This document shows, piece by piece, positions 56,485-61,979 of a DNA stretch of 64,000 nucleotides. The translations under genes and the position numbers were made by a program. Below the pieces are notes generated by a model that saw nothing but the letters and a program-made list of their open reading frames with translations, was not told where the DNA came from and ran no database searches. Each line of letters opens with the position of its first letter. The first letter of the stretch is position 1. This stretch comes from Methanofollis fontis (GTDB lineage Archaea > Halobacteriota > Methanomicrobia > Methanomicrobiales > Methanofollaceae). Location of the stretch: the NCBI RefSeq assembly GCF_004297185.1, contig NZ_PGCL01000003.1, positions 372,001-436,000 on the forward strand. The letters are read 5' to 3'.

Positions 56485-57079
56485 ATATTCTTCGGGAATG
56501 CCGCCGGCAGACCCATCTTTTTTTGATGATTGGACACCGCCACATCTCTGCTCCTTTCCTGCAATAGGGCGTGTCGTGGTTGCTCCACATCATACGTCTG
56601 ACACCCTTCCCGTCAGATGGAGATCAGAAATGGTTCATGTCATTCAATCCTCGCATCATTCCGGAACCACGCCGGCCTCATAAGGGCCAATTGTCATAAT
56701 ATCCATTTCCGTCAATTTTTCAGGACAATAATTTTACCGCCATCACGACCCCCAATCCAGCATCTCTGCACTCCGATGCCACCACAGGATGCACCGAACC
56801 ATGCAAATATTAATATAATATTGTATTCAGAATGCGGGAAAGATACCGATAGTGGATCGATATTGCTAATCATCCAGGATATTCAGAGAGTCCATGACCA
56901 GACGATCATTGTGTAAAAATCACCATTTCCGCACATTGGCACCATCGATCACCTGTCATCGTTGCATTGTACAGAGAACGGGAGATGGAGATCTCACCAG
57001 AAAATCATATCCACATCACATATATCGCTTCCATACCGGTCTGGCTGTAATCGAGATCGCGAACAGGGCACCTGTCATA
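56485..57079. other. Non-coding-looking stretch after thrS
   Basis: About 595 bp have no convincing gene. Codon-position bias typical of the neighbours is lost and AT content rises, with a block ATTAATATAATATTG near 56811-56825. A long T-run (CTTTTTTTG, 56518-56526) some 35 bp past thrS is a plausible terminator. The region marks the border between the core genes and the surface-protein cluster. Confidence 0.5.
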
Positions 57080-57199
57080 ATGGAGGGAGAATCGAACCAT
57101 CATGAGGACGATGGCTCCCTCTCCACCGGGCCCGATCCCATCGCAACCCTGCAGGATATGGCCTCCCGGAATGGAAACACCCAGACAACCGAATTTTAG
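57080..57199 (+). CDS. Possible 39-residue peptide, unassigned
   Basis: The frame MEGESNHHEDDGSLSTGPDP... to TAG at 57199 shows the third-position G/C bias of real genes here. It is hydrophilic and acidic, without a signal peptide. The frame extends upstream to 56894 with poorer codon use. No strong SD is visible. It is followed at 11 bp by another doubtful ORF. It could be a remnant of a larger gene or a true small protein. Confidence 0.25.
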   Translation: MEGESNHHEDDGSLSTGPDPIATLQDMASRNGNTQTTEF

Positions 57200-57210
57200 A
57201 GGGACAGACC

Positions 57211-58074
57211 GTGGTGATGCCGGAAAACGATGATAAAAAGAAACGCTTCAAAATAACCGACAGCACACCAGGTCAGAACGGCGATGACGTCCCGATGGAA
57301 ACGATCACCATCGGTCACCGGGGGACAGAGCCGGCAGCATTTTTTCATTCATTCACATTATGTCAGGGCGGACCCCGAAACCCTGAGATGTATACGCCGG
57401 GGAGAGATCCCTGTGATCCCACCGCCTCTGAACGCCTTTCGATTCTCAGCCTCGTGTCCATGCTACACTCCGAACCAGAGATACGAAATAGAACCCCTAT
57501 CCTCAGGACTGACCAGCTCTCCGGACAGGGATATACCATCCCGGGGCGGATGACCCTTGAACCCGATCCTCCAGGATGGAATTATATTTCAACAACAGGA
57601 CCACAACCCGCACGATCTTTCCGGCCCCGGGTGCCGACAGATCACCGCCTCTTTGTGTCTCAGCCAGACACCAGAAGGATGCAGCGCCGCCGGAGAGCGG
57701 GAGCACCAGAGAATAGGACGGATGGAATAACCGAGGACTATGGTTTTTCGGTGATGAGGTGCCACCACCGGAACAGAACCGATCCAGCACCCACACCGGA
57801 GCGCCCGTACGTTCCACTTCTTTGGTCCATGTACATGAGGGTGCAAATCCAGGCGCAACCAGACAGAATCACGGTCAGAGAGGAGGTGCCGGCGGGTCCG
57901 TTCTCGGAAGTGTATGATGGTGCCGATTGCGACCGGAGGGACGCCGATCCGATTTCGGGACATCGTCGGAATTATTTCGATTTGGTCGATGGAGACAATC
58001 AAACCATCATAAAATCGATCATATCACACCCAGAATCAGTTTTTGTGGCGCCTTCGAGTTTTGCGAGGAGATAG
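57211..58074 (+). CDS. Doubtful 287-codon ORF with coding-like N-terminus
   Basis: From GTG 57211 (or ATG 57217, after GAGGGACAG) the first 45 codons look native: PENDDKKKRFKITDSTPGQN then DDVPMETITIGHRGTEP. Beyond about codon 50, codon use changes sharply (AGA, CGA, TTA, CTA) and composition becomes rich in Pro, Arg and Thr with no fold pattern. The stop lies 1 nt before the cohesin gene start and its last codons supply that gene's SD. It is either an ORFan or a short gene fused by decay to non-coding sequence. Confidence 0.3.
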   Translation: MVMPENDDKKKRFKITDSTPGQNGDDVPMETITIGHRGTEPAAFFHSFTLCQGGPRNPEMYTPGRDPCDPTASERLSILSLVSMLHSEPEIRNRTPILRTDQLSGQGYTIPGRMTLEPDPPGWNYISTTGPQPARSFRPRVPTDHRLFVSQPDTRRMQRRRRAGAPENRTDGITEDYGFSVMRCHHRNRTDPAPTPERPYVPLLWSMYMRVQIQAQPDRITVREEVPAGPFSEVYDGADCDRRDADPISGHRRNYFDLVDGDNQTIIKSIISHPESVFVAPSSFARR

Positions 58075-58075
58075 A

Positions 58076-58801
58076 ATGAGACTGCCAATATCTGTAACAG
58101 GAATTGTTGTGTTATGTATTCTTCTTTCAGGAGCCTGTCAGGCCACGCCAGTCCTGATAACCCAACAATCGACCTTGATCTCAGATGGAGAGGATATCAC
58201 CGCCGCTATCATCCTCAAGGACGCTGAAAACGGCCTTTCTGGATACAATATGTCGCTTTCAGTTATTGATTCCCAGATTGCTCATATCAGAGGGTTTTCT
58301 TACCCGGAATGGGCAGCACTGCATGATAATGGCACACTTCCTGCAGGAGAAACCTGGATAGAAGCCATCGATATCGGAGATACGGCTGAAGGAAATGAGG
58401 GACCGATCAGCCTCGGCAGTGTCATACTTCAGGCCAACACGGCAGGGACGACCACCCTCCGCATTCATTCCCTGAATATTCAGGACAACAGGGGTAACTC
58501 CTATGAGATCGACGGATATGAGGTTGAAATCCATGTGGAGGCTTCCAGCGGGGGAGGAGGCAATGATGAACAGGTCTCAACAGAACCCCCCGCCACATCA
58601 ACACCCGGACCAACCATGAATATCACCGATACCCCCTCTCCTTCAATGACAACCTCACCCCCCCCGACCCCGCAGATTGAGACTGAGGCAGCACCAACCA
58701 TACAGAACGCAGAATCAGGTTTTATTTCCCCTTTTATTTGCCTTCTAACCCTGTTTGCCGGACTTTACATCATTAAACGGAGTGAAAAAAGATGGAAATG
58801 A
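58076..58801 (+). CDS. Membrane-anchored cohesin-like surface protein
   Basis: The protein has 241 residues. A signal peptide (LPISVTGIVVLCILLSGACQA) is followed by one cohesin-like beta-sandwich (about 25-165) with GYNMSLSVID, FSYPEWAAL, TLPAGETWIEAIDIGD and LGSVILQANTAGTTTLRI. A Thr/Pro/Ser linker spans about 170-215. The C-terminal helix FISPFICLLTLFAGLYII ends in a basic tail (KRSEKRWK). This is a cell-surface anchor able to hold dockerin partners. ATG 58076 follows GAGGAG. It overlaps the next gene by 10 nt. Confidence 0.82.
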   Translation: MRLPISVTGIVVLCILLSGACQATPVLITQQSTLISDGEDITAAIILKDAENGLSGYNMSLSVIDSQIAHIRGFSYPEWAALHDNGTLPAGETWIEAIDIGDTAEGNEGPISLGSVILQANTAGTTTLRIHSLNIQDNRGNSYEIDGYEVEIHVEASSGGGGNDEQVSTEPPATSTPGPTMNITDTPSPSMTTSPPPTPQIETEAAPTIQNAESGFISPFICLLTLFAGLYIIKRSEKRWK

Positions 58802-60858
58802 AAACGATGCTGGCTTTCAGCACACTGCTTTTCTGCATCCTTCTGGTGCAGGGGGCGCTGGCTGCAGAGGCCATACCAAATGTGGAGTTCGCCACCATCT
58901 CGATTCTGCCGGCAACGGCGGAAGTTGATGTGAATGAGACCATGGACTATTCATTTGTCATGGACACCGCCATGTGGGGAGTGTCAAGGTATACCATGAC
59001 AGTATCCCTTGAAAACGGGACAGTCGGTGAGATCGTCGGGGTTAACGTCCCGCACTGGGCACAGATCCCGCAGGACGTTATACTTCCTGCCGATGAAGTG
59101 ACGATTCAGACGGTTGATCTGACAGGCGGGTCAGGCTTTGAGAATATTGAACTCTTAACCGTCACCGTCCGCGGTGACGTACCGGGATCGAGCGAGATCA
59201 CCATTGGACCGATCACCGTCGCGGACCGGCGGAGTGACCTCTATGCGATCACGGTTGTCCCCGCAAGCATCAGTGTCATTGCAGAAGAACCGGTTGAGGA
59301 ACTCATCGCCAACTTTACCGCCAGCGTGACCTCCGGAGAGGCGCCGTTGACCGTTGCGTTCAGTGACCTCTCCACCGGAAACCCGACCGGATGGGTATGG
59401 GATTTTGGTATGGAAAATGCCACATCAGAGGAGCAGAACCCGACATATACCTATGAGATGCCCGGCATCTACACAGTCAGCCTGACAGTCACCAATGAGA
59501 TGGGGGACAATAACACCATAGTCAGAGAGGGCTACATCAATGTCAGCGAAGGGGGAGGCATGAGCATCTATGAGACAGCAGTTGCAGACGGGAACTTCAC
59601 AAGCCTTGTCGGTGCGCTCGATCTTACCGGCCTGAACGCCACGCTCCATGAACCCGGCACATACACCGTCTTCGCACCGACGGATGACGCCTTTGCCTCA
59701 CTTCCAGATGATCTCCTCGATGCCCTTCTCAACGATACTGCTGCGCTCACCGATGTGCTCCTCTACCATGTGGCCGGAGAATCGTACATGGCTGAAGACC
59801 TCACCGCAATGGATAAACTCCAGACACTGCTCGGTCCGACGGTAAGCATCACCTGGGATGATGCGAATGCGACGCTGATGGTGAATGACGCAACCGTGAT
59901 CATCGCCGACATGGAGTGCACCAATGGGGTCATCCATGCAGTCGACACCGTGCTGATCCCGCCGGAAGAAGAGGCAGAGGCAGACTTTGAGGCGGACGTC
60001 CTCTCCGGTCCAGCGCCGCTGACCGTCACCTTCACCGACATGAGCACCGTCGAAAATATAACGGCATGGGCGTGGGATTTCGGCGTGGAGAATGCCACAT
60101 CCACAGAACAGAACCCGACATACACCTATGCAATGCCCGGCATCTACACTGTCGGCCTGACGATCAAGGACGCAATGAACGAGACCTATTCTGAGGTGAA
60201 GATCGATTATATCCAGGTCACCGAACCTGCCGCCGGTTCGGCCATATCCTTCACACCGGTCAACGCAACGGTGGGGGGAGGTCAGACGGCTGAATTCACA
60301 ATGATCCTTGATTCTGCGCCCTCAGGTCTTGCAGGATATACACTGAACCTGAGTGTCGTCAATCCTGCCGTTGCGACAATTTCCGGCATCACATTCCCGG
60401 AGTGGGCAGAGATCAATGGAACGTCAGATCTTCCCAATGCAAGCGCCTGGATGAAAACGGTCGATCTCGGAGAGATGGTCGGATCAAATGCAACAGACGT
60501 CGTTCTCGGGACCGTGATCCTCACCGGACTCTCGGCAGGGAACACCACCCTGATAGTCGATGTGGTGGCGATGACAGCAGACGGAGGTGAGGCGGTCACA
60601 CCCAAAACCGGCGAGGCAACAATCGAAGTGACCGCCATTCCACCGTTGCCTGGATACACCAACCCGCCAGCCGATCTGGACGGTGATGGACTCTATGAGG
60701 ACGTCAACGGAAACGGAATGCTGGACTACGACGATGTCGTGGGTTTCTCAAGGAACTTCTTATGGATTGAAGAGAATAACCTGACGGCCTTGTTTGATTT
60801 CAATGCAAACGGTGTTCTGGACTATGACGATGTGGTAACGCTGTACGGAATGATCTAA
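58792..60858 (+). CDS. Scaffold-like surface protein: cohesin, PKD, fasciclin, PKD, cohesin, dockerin
   Basis: The protein has 688 residues with a signal peptide (about 1-25). Domains in order: cohesin-like (30-160), PKD (170-250, WVWDFGMENATSEEQNPTYT), fasciclin (256-392, YTVFAPTDDAFASLPDDLLD), PKD (396-478, AWAWDFGVENATS), cohesin-like (482-615, FPEWAEI), and a C-terminal type I-like dockerin (625-688). The dockerin has two Ca-binding repeats, DLDGDG/VNGNGMLDYDDVV and FDFNANGVLDYDDVV. It is presumably secreted and docked on a cohesin such as the upstream protein. Asn-X-Thr/Ser glycosylation sites are common. It is coupled to the anchor gene. Confidence 0.88.
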   Translation: MEMKTMLAFSTLLFCILLVQGALAAEAIPNVEFATISILPATAEVDVNETMDYSFVMDTAMWGVSRYTMTVSLENGTVGEIVGVNVPHWAQIPQDVILPADEVTIQTVDLTGGSGFENIELLTVTVRGDVPGSSEITIGPITVADRRSDLYAITVVPASISVIAEEPVEELIANFTASVTSGEAPLTVAFSDLSTGNPTGWVWDFGMENATSEEQNPTYTYEMPGIYTVSLTVTNEMGDNNTIVREGYINVSEGGGMSIYETAVADGNFTSLVGALDLTGLNATLHEPGTYTVFAPTDDAFASLPDDLLDALLNDTAALTDVLLYHVAGESYMAEDLTAMDKLQTLLGPTVSITWDDANATLMVNDATVIIADMECTNGVIHAVDTVLIPPEEEAEADFEADVLSGPAPLTVTFTDMSTVENITAWAWDFGVENATSTEQNPTYTYAMPGIYTVGLTIKDAMNETYSEVKIDYIQVTEPAAGSAISFTPVNATVGGGQTAEFTMILDSAPSGLAGYTLNLSVVNPAVATISGITFPEWAEINGTSDLPNASAWMKTVDLGEMVGSNATDVVLGTVILTGLSAGNTTLIVDVVAMTADGGEAVTPKTGEATIEVTAIPPLPGYTNPPADLDGDGLYEDVNGNGMLDYDDVVGFSRNFLWIEENNLTALFDFNANGVLDYDDVVTLYGMI

Positions 60859-60890: not shown

Positions 60891-61979
60891 GTGGAACAGG
60901 AGTGGACGTGGAGAGTAAACGGAGAGGATGAGATATATTACAACACCAGGACCGGGGTCATGCAGAAGCAACGGCCCGCGTTCATCGATGACAATGAGAT
61001 CTGGGCACCGCCAGACCACAATCCCCTCGCACCCCTCCGCCTTTATCTCGATCCCACCTAACGCTGTAACCTTGCCTGCCGTCATTGCATCACCCGTTCC
61101 TCTCCCGTAGCAGAGAAAAACAGGGAAGTTGGCATGGAGCACCTCCGAAGCCTCATTCGATCGTGTTGCCGTGCCGGCGTCCTGGAAGTGGCTATAACTG
61201 GTGGAGAGCCCTTAATTTATCCGGAGATTTTCTCTTTGATGGATCAAATCCGAAACTGCCGGATGAATGTGATGATCTCCACCAATGGCATGCTGGTCAC
61301 TCATGAAATCGCACAAAAGCTGGCGGCACTGGGCGTGATGGAGACCAGAGTCAGTTTCGAAGGATGCCGGGAGGTGAATGACGGTATCAGGGGAAACGGC
61401 ACATATGACCGGGCACTCAGGGCCATAGAACACCTGGTTGATACAGGAAACCGCACTGTCTGCCGCCTGACACTCTCCCGGAGAAGTGAAGAGAGCCTGG
61501 ATCATCTATTTGCAGACCTGCAATCACGGAATGCCAGAATTGTGAAGGTTTCAGTTATAAAAAATAGCGGAAGAGCATCTGATCCTGAAAATGCGGATTT
61601 GCATGGACCTAAAGGAGATCTGGCATGTGCGAAGCGACTCATAGAAATGGGGCAACGTTTCGGAATCGAGGTGCAGCTCTCATCCGATGATTTCCCGGTA
61701 TCGGCAGAAGAGGCAAAAGATGGAAAATTAGGGATTTCAGGGGTCCAGAACTGCGGGGCAGGAACAGCAACAGCATATGTGTCACCCTATGGAGAGGTTC
61801 TGCCCTGTTCATCAATACCACAGATTGTATTTGGGAATATCCGAAACGACTCATTTATGAGAATATGGACCGGTTCTACAGCAATGTGGTTCAGAAAGAT
61901 GGCGGCAAGCTCCAATGAACGACTGATCTGTCAGGCACCCTGTTTCCGGCATGTTGCCGAACAAATATGTCATTTGTGA
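60891..61979 (+). pseudogene. Radical SAM/SPASM protein interrupted by in-frame TAA
   Basis: From GTG 60891 the frame runs 362 codons with one internal stop, TAA at 61059-61061 (codon 57). Before it: LRLYLDPT. After it: RCNLACRHC, the CxxxCxxC motif that binds the SAM 4Fe-4S cluster. No frameshift is involved. Later parts are intact: AITGGEPL, MISTNGML and a Cys-rich SPASM-like end (NCGAG, LPCSS, ICQAPCFRH, ICHL). The first downstream ATG (61134) omits the cluster cysteines, so no truncated product could be a radical SAM enzyme. The parent codon was probably Tyr. It lies 32 bp after the dockerin gene, with a G-rich SD. Confidence 0.85.

Follow-up and report, generated by a model that had tools for sequence, protein, structure and literature searches.

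A probable cohesin-dockerin surface-display gene pair in Methanofollis fontis and its relatives in other archaea

In the methanogen Methanofollis fontis (Methanomicrobiales), two overlapping genes on the forward strand encode a probable cohesin-dockerin pair, here called the anchor and the adaptor. They lie within a 64,000-nucleotide stretch (contig NZ_PGCL01000003.1, positions 372,001 to 436,000; hereafter the window, whose numbering is used throughout), which is part of contig 3 of a 2.36-Mb genome in 22 contigs. A first-pass annotation made from the letters alone had correctly placed them in a methanogen. The bounds of the two-gene block are exact, with an ATG at 58076 and the last stop codon ending at 60858. 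The anchor gene (58076-58801, +) and the adaptor gene (58792-60858, +) overlap at the anchor stop codon; if the adaptor instead began at an alternative start, 58798, the overlap would be ATGA.

The anchor gene encodes 241 amino acids. By inspection, its protein begins with a signal-peptide-like N-terminus, which is followed by a single cohesin-like module (W1, 58145-58543, one of the modules that we call cohB), a Pro/Thr-rich linker also containing Gly (58544-58717, again by inspection) and a C-terminal hydrophobic helix with a Lys/Arg tail (58718-58798; mean hydropathy over 19 residues, 2.1). Pfam and NCBIfam scans gave nothing useful for this protein, and the match to the NCBIfam ClfB exception model (E 0.0015) is one of Pro/Thr composition. 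Because the NCBIfam PGF-CTERM model does not match it, the C-terminus was taken as a plain membrane helix. An archaeosortase route was rejected on the same ground, despite an ArtA-type enzyme (TIGR04125) encoded in the genome. The combination of a modelled cohesin fold with a hydrophobic C-terminus would suit an anchoring scaffoldin, as had been proposed for this gene, with a putative location at the cell surface.

The adaptor gene encodes 688 amino acids in the order cohesin-PKD-FAS1-PKD-cohesin-dockerin. The first cohesin-like module (W2, 58882-59289) is assigned as a putative cohB by alignment and profile. It is followed by a PKD domain (59308-59547; Pfam PF18911/PF00801, in two stretches), a Fasciclin (FAS1) domain (59569-59961; PF02469, E 6.4e-34, with TGFBI and periostin chains as matches in the PDB), a second PKD domain (59980-60222; Pfam), and a further cohB module (W3, 60238-60636) immediately upstream of the dockerin (60646-60855), whose type we call docB. 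Alignments display two DxNxNGxxDxxD-type loops in this dockerin, and its model contains the accompanying helices, as expected of a duplicated calcium-binding loop-helix repeat. The two cohesin-like modules and the two repeats had been recognised before; an additional Asp-rich loop upstream of the repeats, DLDGDGLYED in the window and conserved as DxDGDGxYED in two docB alignments (A3 and A4), had been overlooked. Pfam alone would give neither name, since the cohesin model PF00963 has zero matches to W1, W2 or W3 and the dockerin scores 15.3 bits against Dockerin_1 (PF00404), below the cut-off of 22.9 bits.

The modules nevertheless form one lineage, as the first-pass annotation had proposed. 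W1 to W3 align with four further modules encoded in another gene cluster of this genome (28-36 % identity to W3), and P-x-W-A is invariant in all seven. The rest of the common signature put forward earlier, xPxWAxI...VDL, is looser than stated, W1 reading WAAL...AIDI. The modules represent more than a chance resemblance because their profile recovers seven copies from this genome and has matches in 41 of the 120 genomes that represent the order, and because W1 is predicted to adopt the cohesin fold.

A search of PDB sequences with the cohB profile found no cohesin, and structure comparison was therefore used. The AlphaFold2 model of W1, built on a 55-sequence alignment, has a mean predicted local distance difference test (pLDDT) score of 91.6 and ten strands. 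Against the PDB, Foldseek ranks 1-35 are all cohesins, with 2jh2 as the best (E 3.6e-9) and the Archaeoglobus cohesin 2xdh at rank 12. The VIA Z scores of W1 are 14.1 to 2vo8 and 12.2 to 2xdh. The non-cohesin beta-sandwiches 9ifr, 7me6 and 7wwo were weighed too but have lower scores than the cohesins, the best non-cohesin Z being about 11. W3 and the dockerin modelled together give a pLDDT of 94.8 and a predicted template modelling score (pTM) of 0.81, with cohesin strands followed by dockerin helices (residues 164-172 and 196-205). The structural matches of this model are cohesins over the first 134 residues (Z 14.2 of W3 to 2xdh). None of the listed matches extends over the dockerin part, which carries no meaning because cohesins fill the list. 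Both predicted models thus contain the nine-stranded beta-sandwich typical of cohesins, in line with what structure prediction had been expected to reveal. When 55 cohB modules were scanned singly, PF00963 matched 11, more than any other family did, but weakly (best E 4.2e-5). On the strength of the models of W1 and W3 and of these weak matches, cohB is best described as a predicted cohesin subfamily, recognisable by fold and faintly by sequence.

With a strong docB defined as a profile match at E<1e-10, the 120 genomes of the order comprise 35 with docB and cohB, one with docB only, six with cohB only and 78 with neither (Fisher 7e-23); cohB is present in 35 of the 36 strong-docB genomes vs 6 of the 84 others. 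In comparison, docB and the classical cohesin PF00963 are essentially unlinked in the same set (12 both, 24 docB only, 20 PF00963 only and 64 neither, i.e., 12/36 vs 20/84; p 0.37). Removal of the genus Methanofollis preserves this difference, with 24, 1, 6 and 77 genomes in the first comparison and 5, 20, 19 and 64 in the second. Outside the order, at the same threshold, 27 genomes hold both docB and cohB, six docB only, 14 cohB only and at least 127 neither, the 174 genomes counted there (294 minus 120) being a lower bound. Thus, 27 of the 33 docB genomes outside the order contain cohB.

The two module types are also neighbours. A locus search by docB alone, limited to the best 80 among 149 candidates, yielded 79 loci, near-duplicates included (e.g., L149/L150 and L154/L155). 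cohB lies within 8 kb in 41 of them: in the same protein in 27, in separate proteins only in 13, and in one (L139) beside a dockerin that the docB profile missed. All 32 open reading frames with cohB only in these loci are on the docB strand. From all loci, 48 distinct same-strand pairs of a docB gene and a neighbouring cohB-only gene were drawn; in 29 of these the genes overlap or are separated by 30 bases or less. docB comes first in 43 pairs, while five have cohB first, which is the order of the window. Identical sequences and modules covering less than 95 profile positions were removed from two of the module sets, that of these pairs included. The survey of neighbourhoods in the order covered 59 regions which, together with the own genome, represent 38 of the 41 cohB genomes (G006, G038 and G060 left out).

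Such cassettes occur in Methanofollis, Methanolinea, Methanoculleus, the Methanophagales (ANME-1, anaerobic methanotrophic archaea), ANME-2, Archaeoglobaceae, Thermoproteaceae and the haloarchaeon Natribaculum. In the latter, a PhoX-like protein with cohB and docB precedes a cohB protein of 240 aa that has a membrane helix at its C-terminus. In an ANME-2 locus (L127:8216-9145) the second gene combines an N-terminal cohB with a C-terminal classical dockerin (PF00404, E 3.8e-9), and its protein would be an adaptor between two cohesin-dockerin classes. Elsewhere, PEGA or CBM6 modules stand as the attachment part of the cohB protein. Judged from sequence, the recurring logic appears to be a division of labour between two proteins: one brings cargo and docB, the other an N-terminal cohB plus a means of attachment, be it a membrane helix, a classical dockerin, PEGA or CBM6. 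The cargo of docB proteins in relatives includes subtilase, PhoX-like, metalloprotease, beta-propeller and cellulase domains. That the gene pair is seen again and again in different archaea, and that cohB and docB co-occur, reinforces the anchoring/adaptor architecture suggested earlier for the window. A docB/cohB pair was also seen on a contig labelled Spirochaetes bacterium (L155), with a dockerin almost identical to that of an Archaeoglobaceae metagenome-assembled genome (L154); either the contig is misbinned or the transfer is recent.

The same genome holds further loci of this kind. A second cluster, on contig C2 at about 203.5-209.1 kb, encodes a cohB-docB protein of 492 aa, a cohB-membrane anchor of 251 aa and a protein of 1127 aa in which two cohB modules are accompanied by one PF00963 cohesin and a classical dockerin; in the last, the divergent and the classical cohesin types thus stand together in one polypeptide. 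Classical dockerins over the Pfam cut-off are found in six proteins of the genome, with two subtilases among those scanned. A third cluster, on contig C1 (152584-165947, L013), encodes a subtilase, a 1276-aa dockerin protein with TED/squalene-cyclase-like regions and a 254-aa anchor-like protein; it looks like a classical-type equivalent of the window pair. In agreement with the first-pass annotation, neither protein of the window pair matches a glycoside hydrolase family in Pfam. The same holds for 10 more proteins scanned from cohesin/dockerin loci of the genome, a sample that takes in some of its dockerin proteins. Since dockerin-bearing glycoside hydrolases are what a cellulosome demands, the window system was not filed as one.

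We consider, with a probability of about 0.72, that the window pair serves surface display in an archaeon by way of a cohesin and a dockerin which form a specificity class of their own. The C-terminal helix of the anchor would reside in the membrane and display the single cohB on its Pro/Thr stalk. The adaptor would be secreted, and its C-terminal docB, folded around calcium, would plug into the anchor cohB and so attach the PKD-FAS1-PKD cargo to the cell surface. The two cohB modules of the adaptor itself could accept further docB proteins, such as a second adaptor copy or the 492-aa paralogue of the second cluster, which may lead to short chains or to branching. The FAS1/PKD cargo most likely serves in adhesion, for which the first-pass annotation had named syntrophic bacteria or a biofilm matrix as possible targets. 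As docB proteins of relatives carry other cargo, this role belongs to the present copy and not to the cassette in general.

Several observations weigh against this interpretation. Dockerins adjoining cohB genes served as seeds for the docB profile (A3), so that the co-occurrence is partly built in, and the statistics ignore kinship among genomes. The correlation between cohB distances and those of the neighbouring docB (Mantel r 0.69) is confounded by species phylogeny, and this mirror-tree support was kept as weak because species relatedness is still in it. One genome of the order (G106) has docB with no detected cohB, six have cohB with no strong docB, and outside the order six have docB with no cohB at E<1e-10. 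cohB is absent from 38 of the 79 docB loci within the flank examined, and in 27 of the 79 loci cohB and docB share one protein. Finally, the membrane helix of the anchor is predicted from hydropathy alone.

Other explanations have to be weighed against the surface-display pair. The one we take most seriously, while giving it distinctly less than an even chance, assigns W3 a role as stabilising partner of docB, like the X module of bacterial X-dockerins; the anchor cohB alone would then bind docB and chains would not form. W3 and the dockerin are indeed predicted as one well-defined unit, with pLDDT values of at least 90 through the joint. In a tree, the pre-dockerin cohB modules cluster apart from the anchor cohB modules (22 and 21 label changes vs shuffled means of 49.7 and 38.1), and in 13 of the 48 neighbour pairs the docB protein has no cohB of its own, so the tandem is not required for docking. 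However, anchor and pre-dockerin modules, compared after an 80 % identity filter that kept 38 of 43 and 51 of 62, respectively, have the same consensus signature, few class-specific columns and no clear interface, and haloarchaeal proteins can place two or three cohB modules before docB. The W1 match list includes 4u3s and 5m0y, X-dockerin units of bacterial scaffoldins. These resemble the adaptor in having a beta-sandwich module directly upstream of the dockerin, but the module of the adaptor is itself of the cohesin type.

It is much less probable that the modules are generic Ig-like stalk domains, cohesin-like in fold only, with the dockerin serving as a calcium-rigidified tail. The failure of Pfam to match the window modules and of the cohB profile to find a cohesin in the PDB would fit such a view, and other beta-sandwiches are fairly close in structure (9ifr, Z 11.1; YcnI 7me6, Z 10.9). 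Yet neither the uninterrupted run of cohesins at the head of the Foldseek list nor the PF00963 matches of relatives would then be expected, and cohB is associated with docB in separate neighbouring genes. Binding of carbohydrate rather than cohesin by docB-like modules seems more improbable still. Substrate binding has been proposed for the dockerins of haloarchaeal enzymes that degrade polysaccharides in the available parts of PMC10963439 and PMC13260240, but the word cohesin occurs 0 times in these texts; moreover, docB also sits on subtilases, PhoX-like and FAS1 proteins, and it tracks cohB.

The closest parallels to the surface-display pair are cellulosomal anchoring and adaptor scaffoldins such as Clostridium thermocellum OlpA/SdbA and Acetivibrio ScaA. 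In these, as is predicted for the window pair, a surface anchor presents a cohesin, and a secreted partner combines cohesins with a dockerin at its C-terminus. In contrast to them, the window pair uses a cohesin subfamily mostly beyond the reach of Pfam, an archaeal membrane helix instead of an S-layer homology (SLH) or sortase anchor, a dockerin with an extra Asp-rich loop, and, in this genome, a cargo with no glycoside hydrolase. The non-cellulosomal Archaeoglobus fulgidus cohesin (2xdh) is similar in fold to W1 and W3, with 14-17 % identity in the structural alignment; we know of no two-gene anchor/adaptor cassette in descriptions of A. fulgidus cohesins and dockerins. Large numbers of both modules are found in ANME genomes (PMC5244752 and PMC9012536, as far as their available text goes), which, like the window pair, have no link to cellulose degradation and which hold the same cassette (L121, L123 and L127). 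The same portions of these papers distinguish neither specificity classes nor an anchor/adaptor gene pair. They also bear out the statement that archaeal cohesin and dockerin function is largely unexplained, the accessible part of PMC9012536 calling for experiments that would establish which of the dockerins and cohesins are binding partners.

Some relatives hold greatly expanded sets. Genome G135 has 70 docB and 15 cohB matches (loci L195-L210 and L231-L236). It belongs to the same phylum as the window genome and is presumably haloarchaeal, a label resting partly on twin-arginine translocation (Tat) signals, which match in 3 of the 21 docB proteins scanned. Glycoside hydrolase (GH) family GH5 is present in seven of these and GH9 in two, while GH18, GH43, GH26, GH3 and CBM3 occur in one each. 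In G135, a 770-aa frame also combines a Tat-like signal with three cohB modules and one docB. Two cohB modules are present in each of two other proteins, one of 1354 aa that has docB as well and one of 1664 aa that bears a PGF-CTERM surface signal. This set has the layout of a cellulosome and is a candidate for a haloarchaeal one. No haloarchaeal cellulosome description was found in the literature by title and start of abstract, in matches read in part and with subscription papers mostly outside the scope. The available text of a genomic study of haloarchaeal cellulose use (PMC10267330) mentions neither dockerin nor cohesin (0 occurrences) and calls the mechanisms almost unknown. Two genomes of the Methanomicrobiales, G068 and G116 (L085 and L211-L230), have 43 and 45 docB matches, respectively, and eight cohB each. 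Among 27 G068 proteins scanned, 10 contain NHL propellers and six CBM6, and a neighbouring cohB protein ends in CBM6-type stretches. Dockerin_1 matches at E<=0.001 in 10 of the 21 scanned docB proteins of G135 and in 21 of the 27 of G068.

Even odds are what we would give the broader proposal that cohB/docB is an archaeal recognition class separate from the classical pair, used alongside it in one genome and conserved as a two-gene anchor/adaptor cassette, which some haloarchaea such as G135 expanded into a true cellulosome. Archaeal cohesins and dockerins are already known, and cohB may already be labelled as cohesin in InterPro or CDD; as far as seen, the recognition of cohB/docB as a separate class, the contrast between this class and PF00963, and the conservation of the anchor/adaptor cassette are new. 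Archaeal dockerins have been reported for years with no clear partner, and the cohB/docB class names concrete partners for testing. If the proposal holds, a single surface-assembly system would be common to archaea as different as those of ANME consortia and the cellulose degraders of salt lakes, and would provide docking pairs that are salt-tolerant in haloarchaea and perhaps heat-stable in Thermoproteaceae and Archaeoglobaceae.

In Methanofollis, the cassette is flanked by thrS and a sensor kinase gene; threonyl-tRNA synthetase is encoded in 10 other Methanofollis loci and the kinase in eight of these 10. Between thrS and the anchor gene, 1.57 kb (56490-58060) contain no convincing gene and have no DNA match among 11 other Methanofollis genomes, though the genes around are syntenic. 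Downstream of the adaptor lies a radical SAM/SPASM gene (60891-61979, +), with relatives at the equivalent position in three other Methanofollis loci. It has an in-frame TAA immediately 5' of the CNLACRHC cluster motif, which reflects either a decayed gene or a sequencing error.

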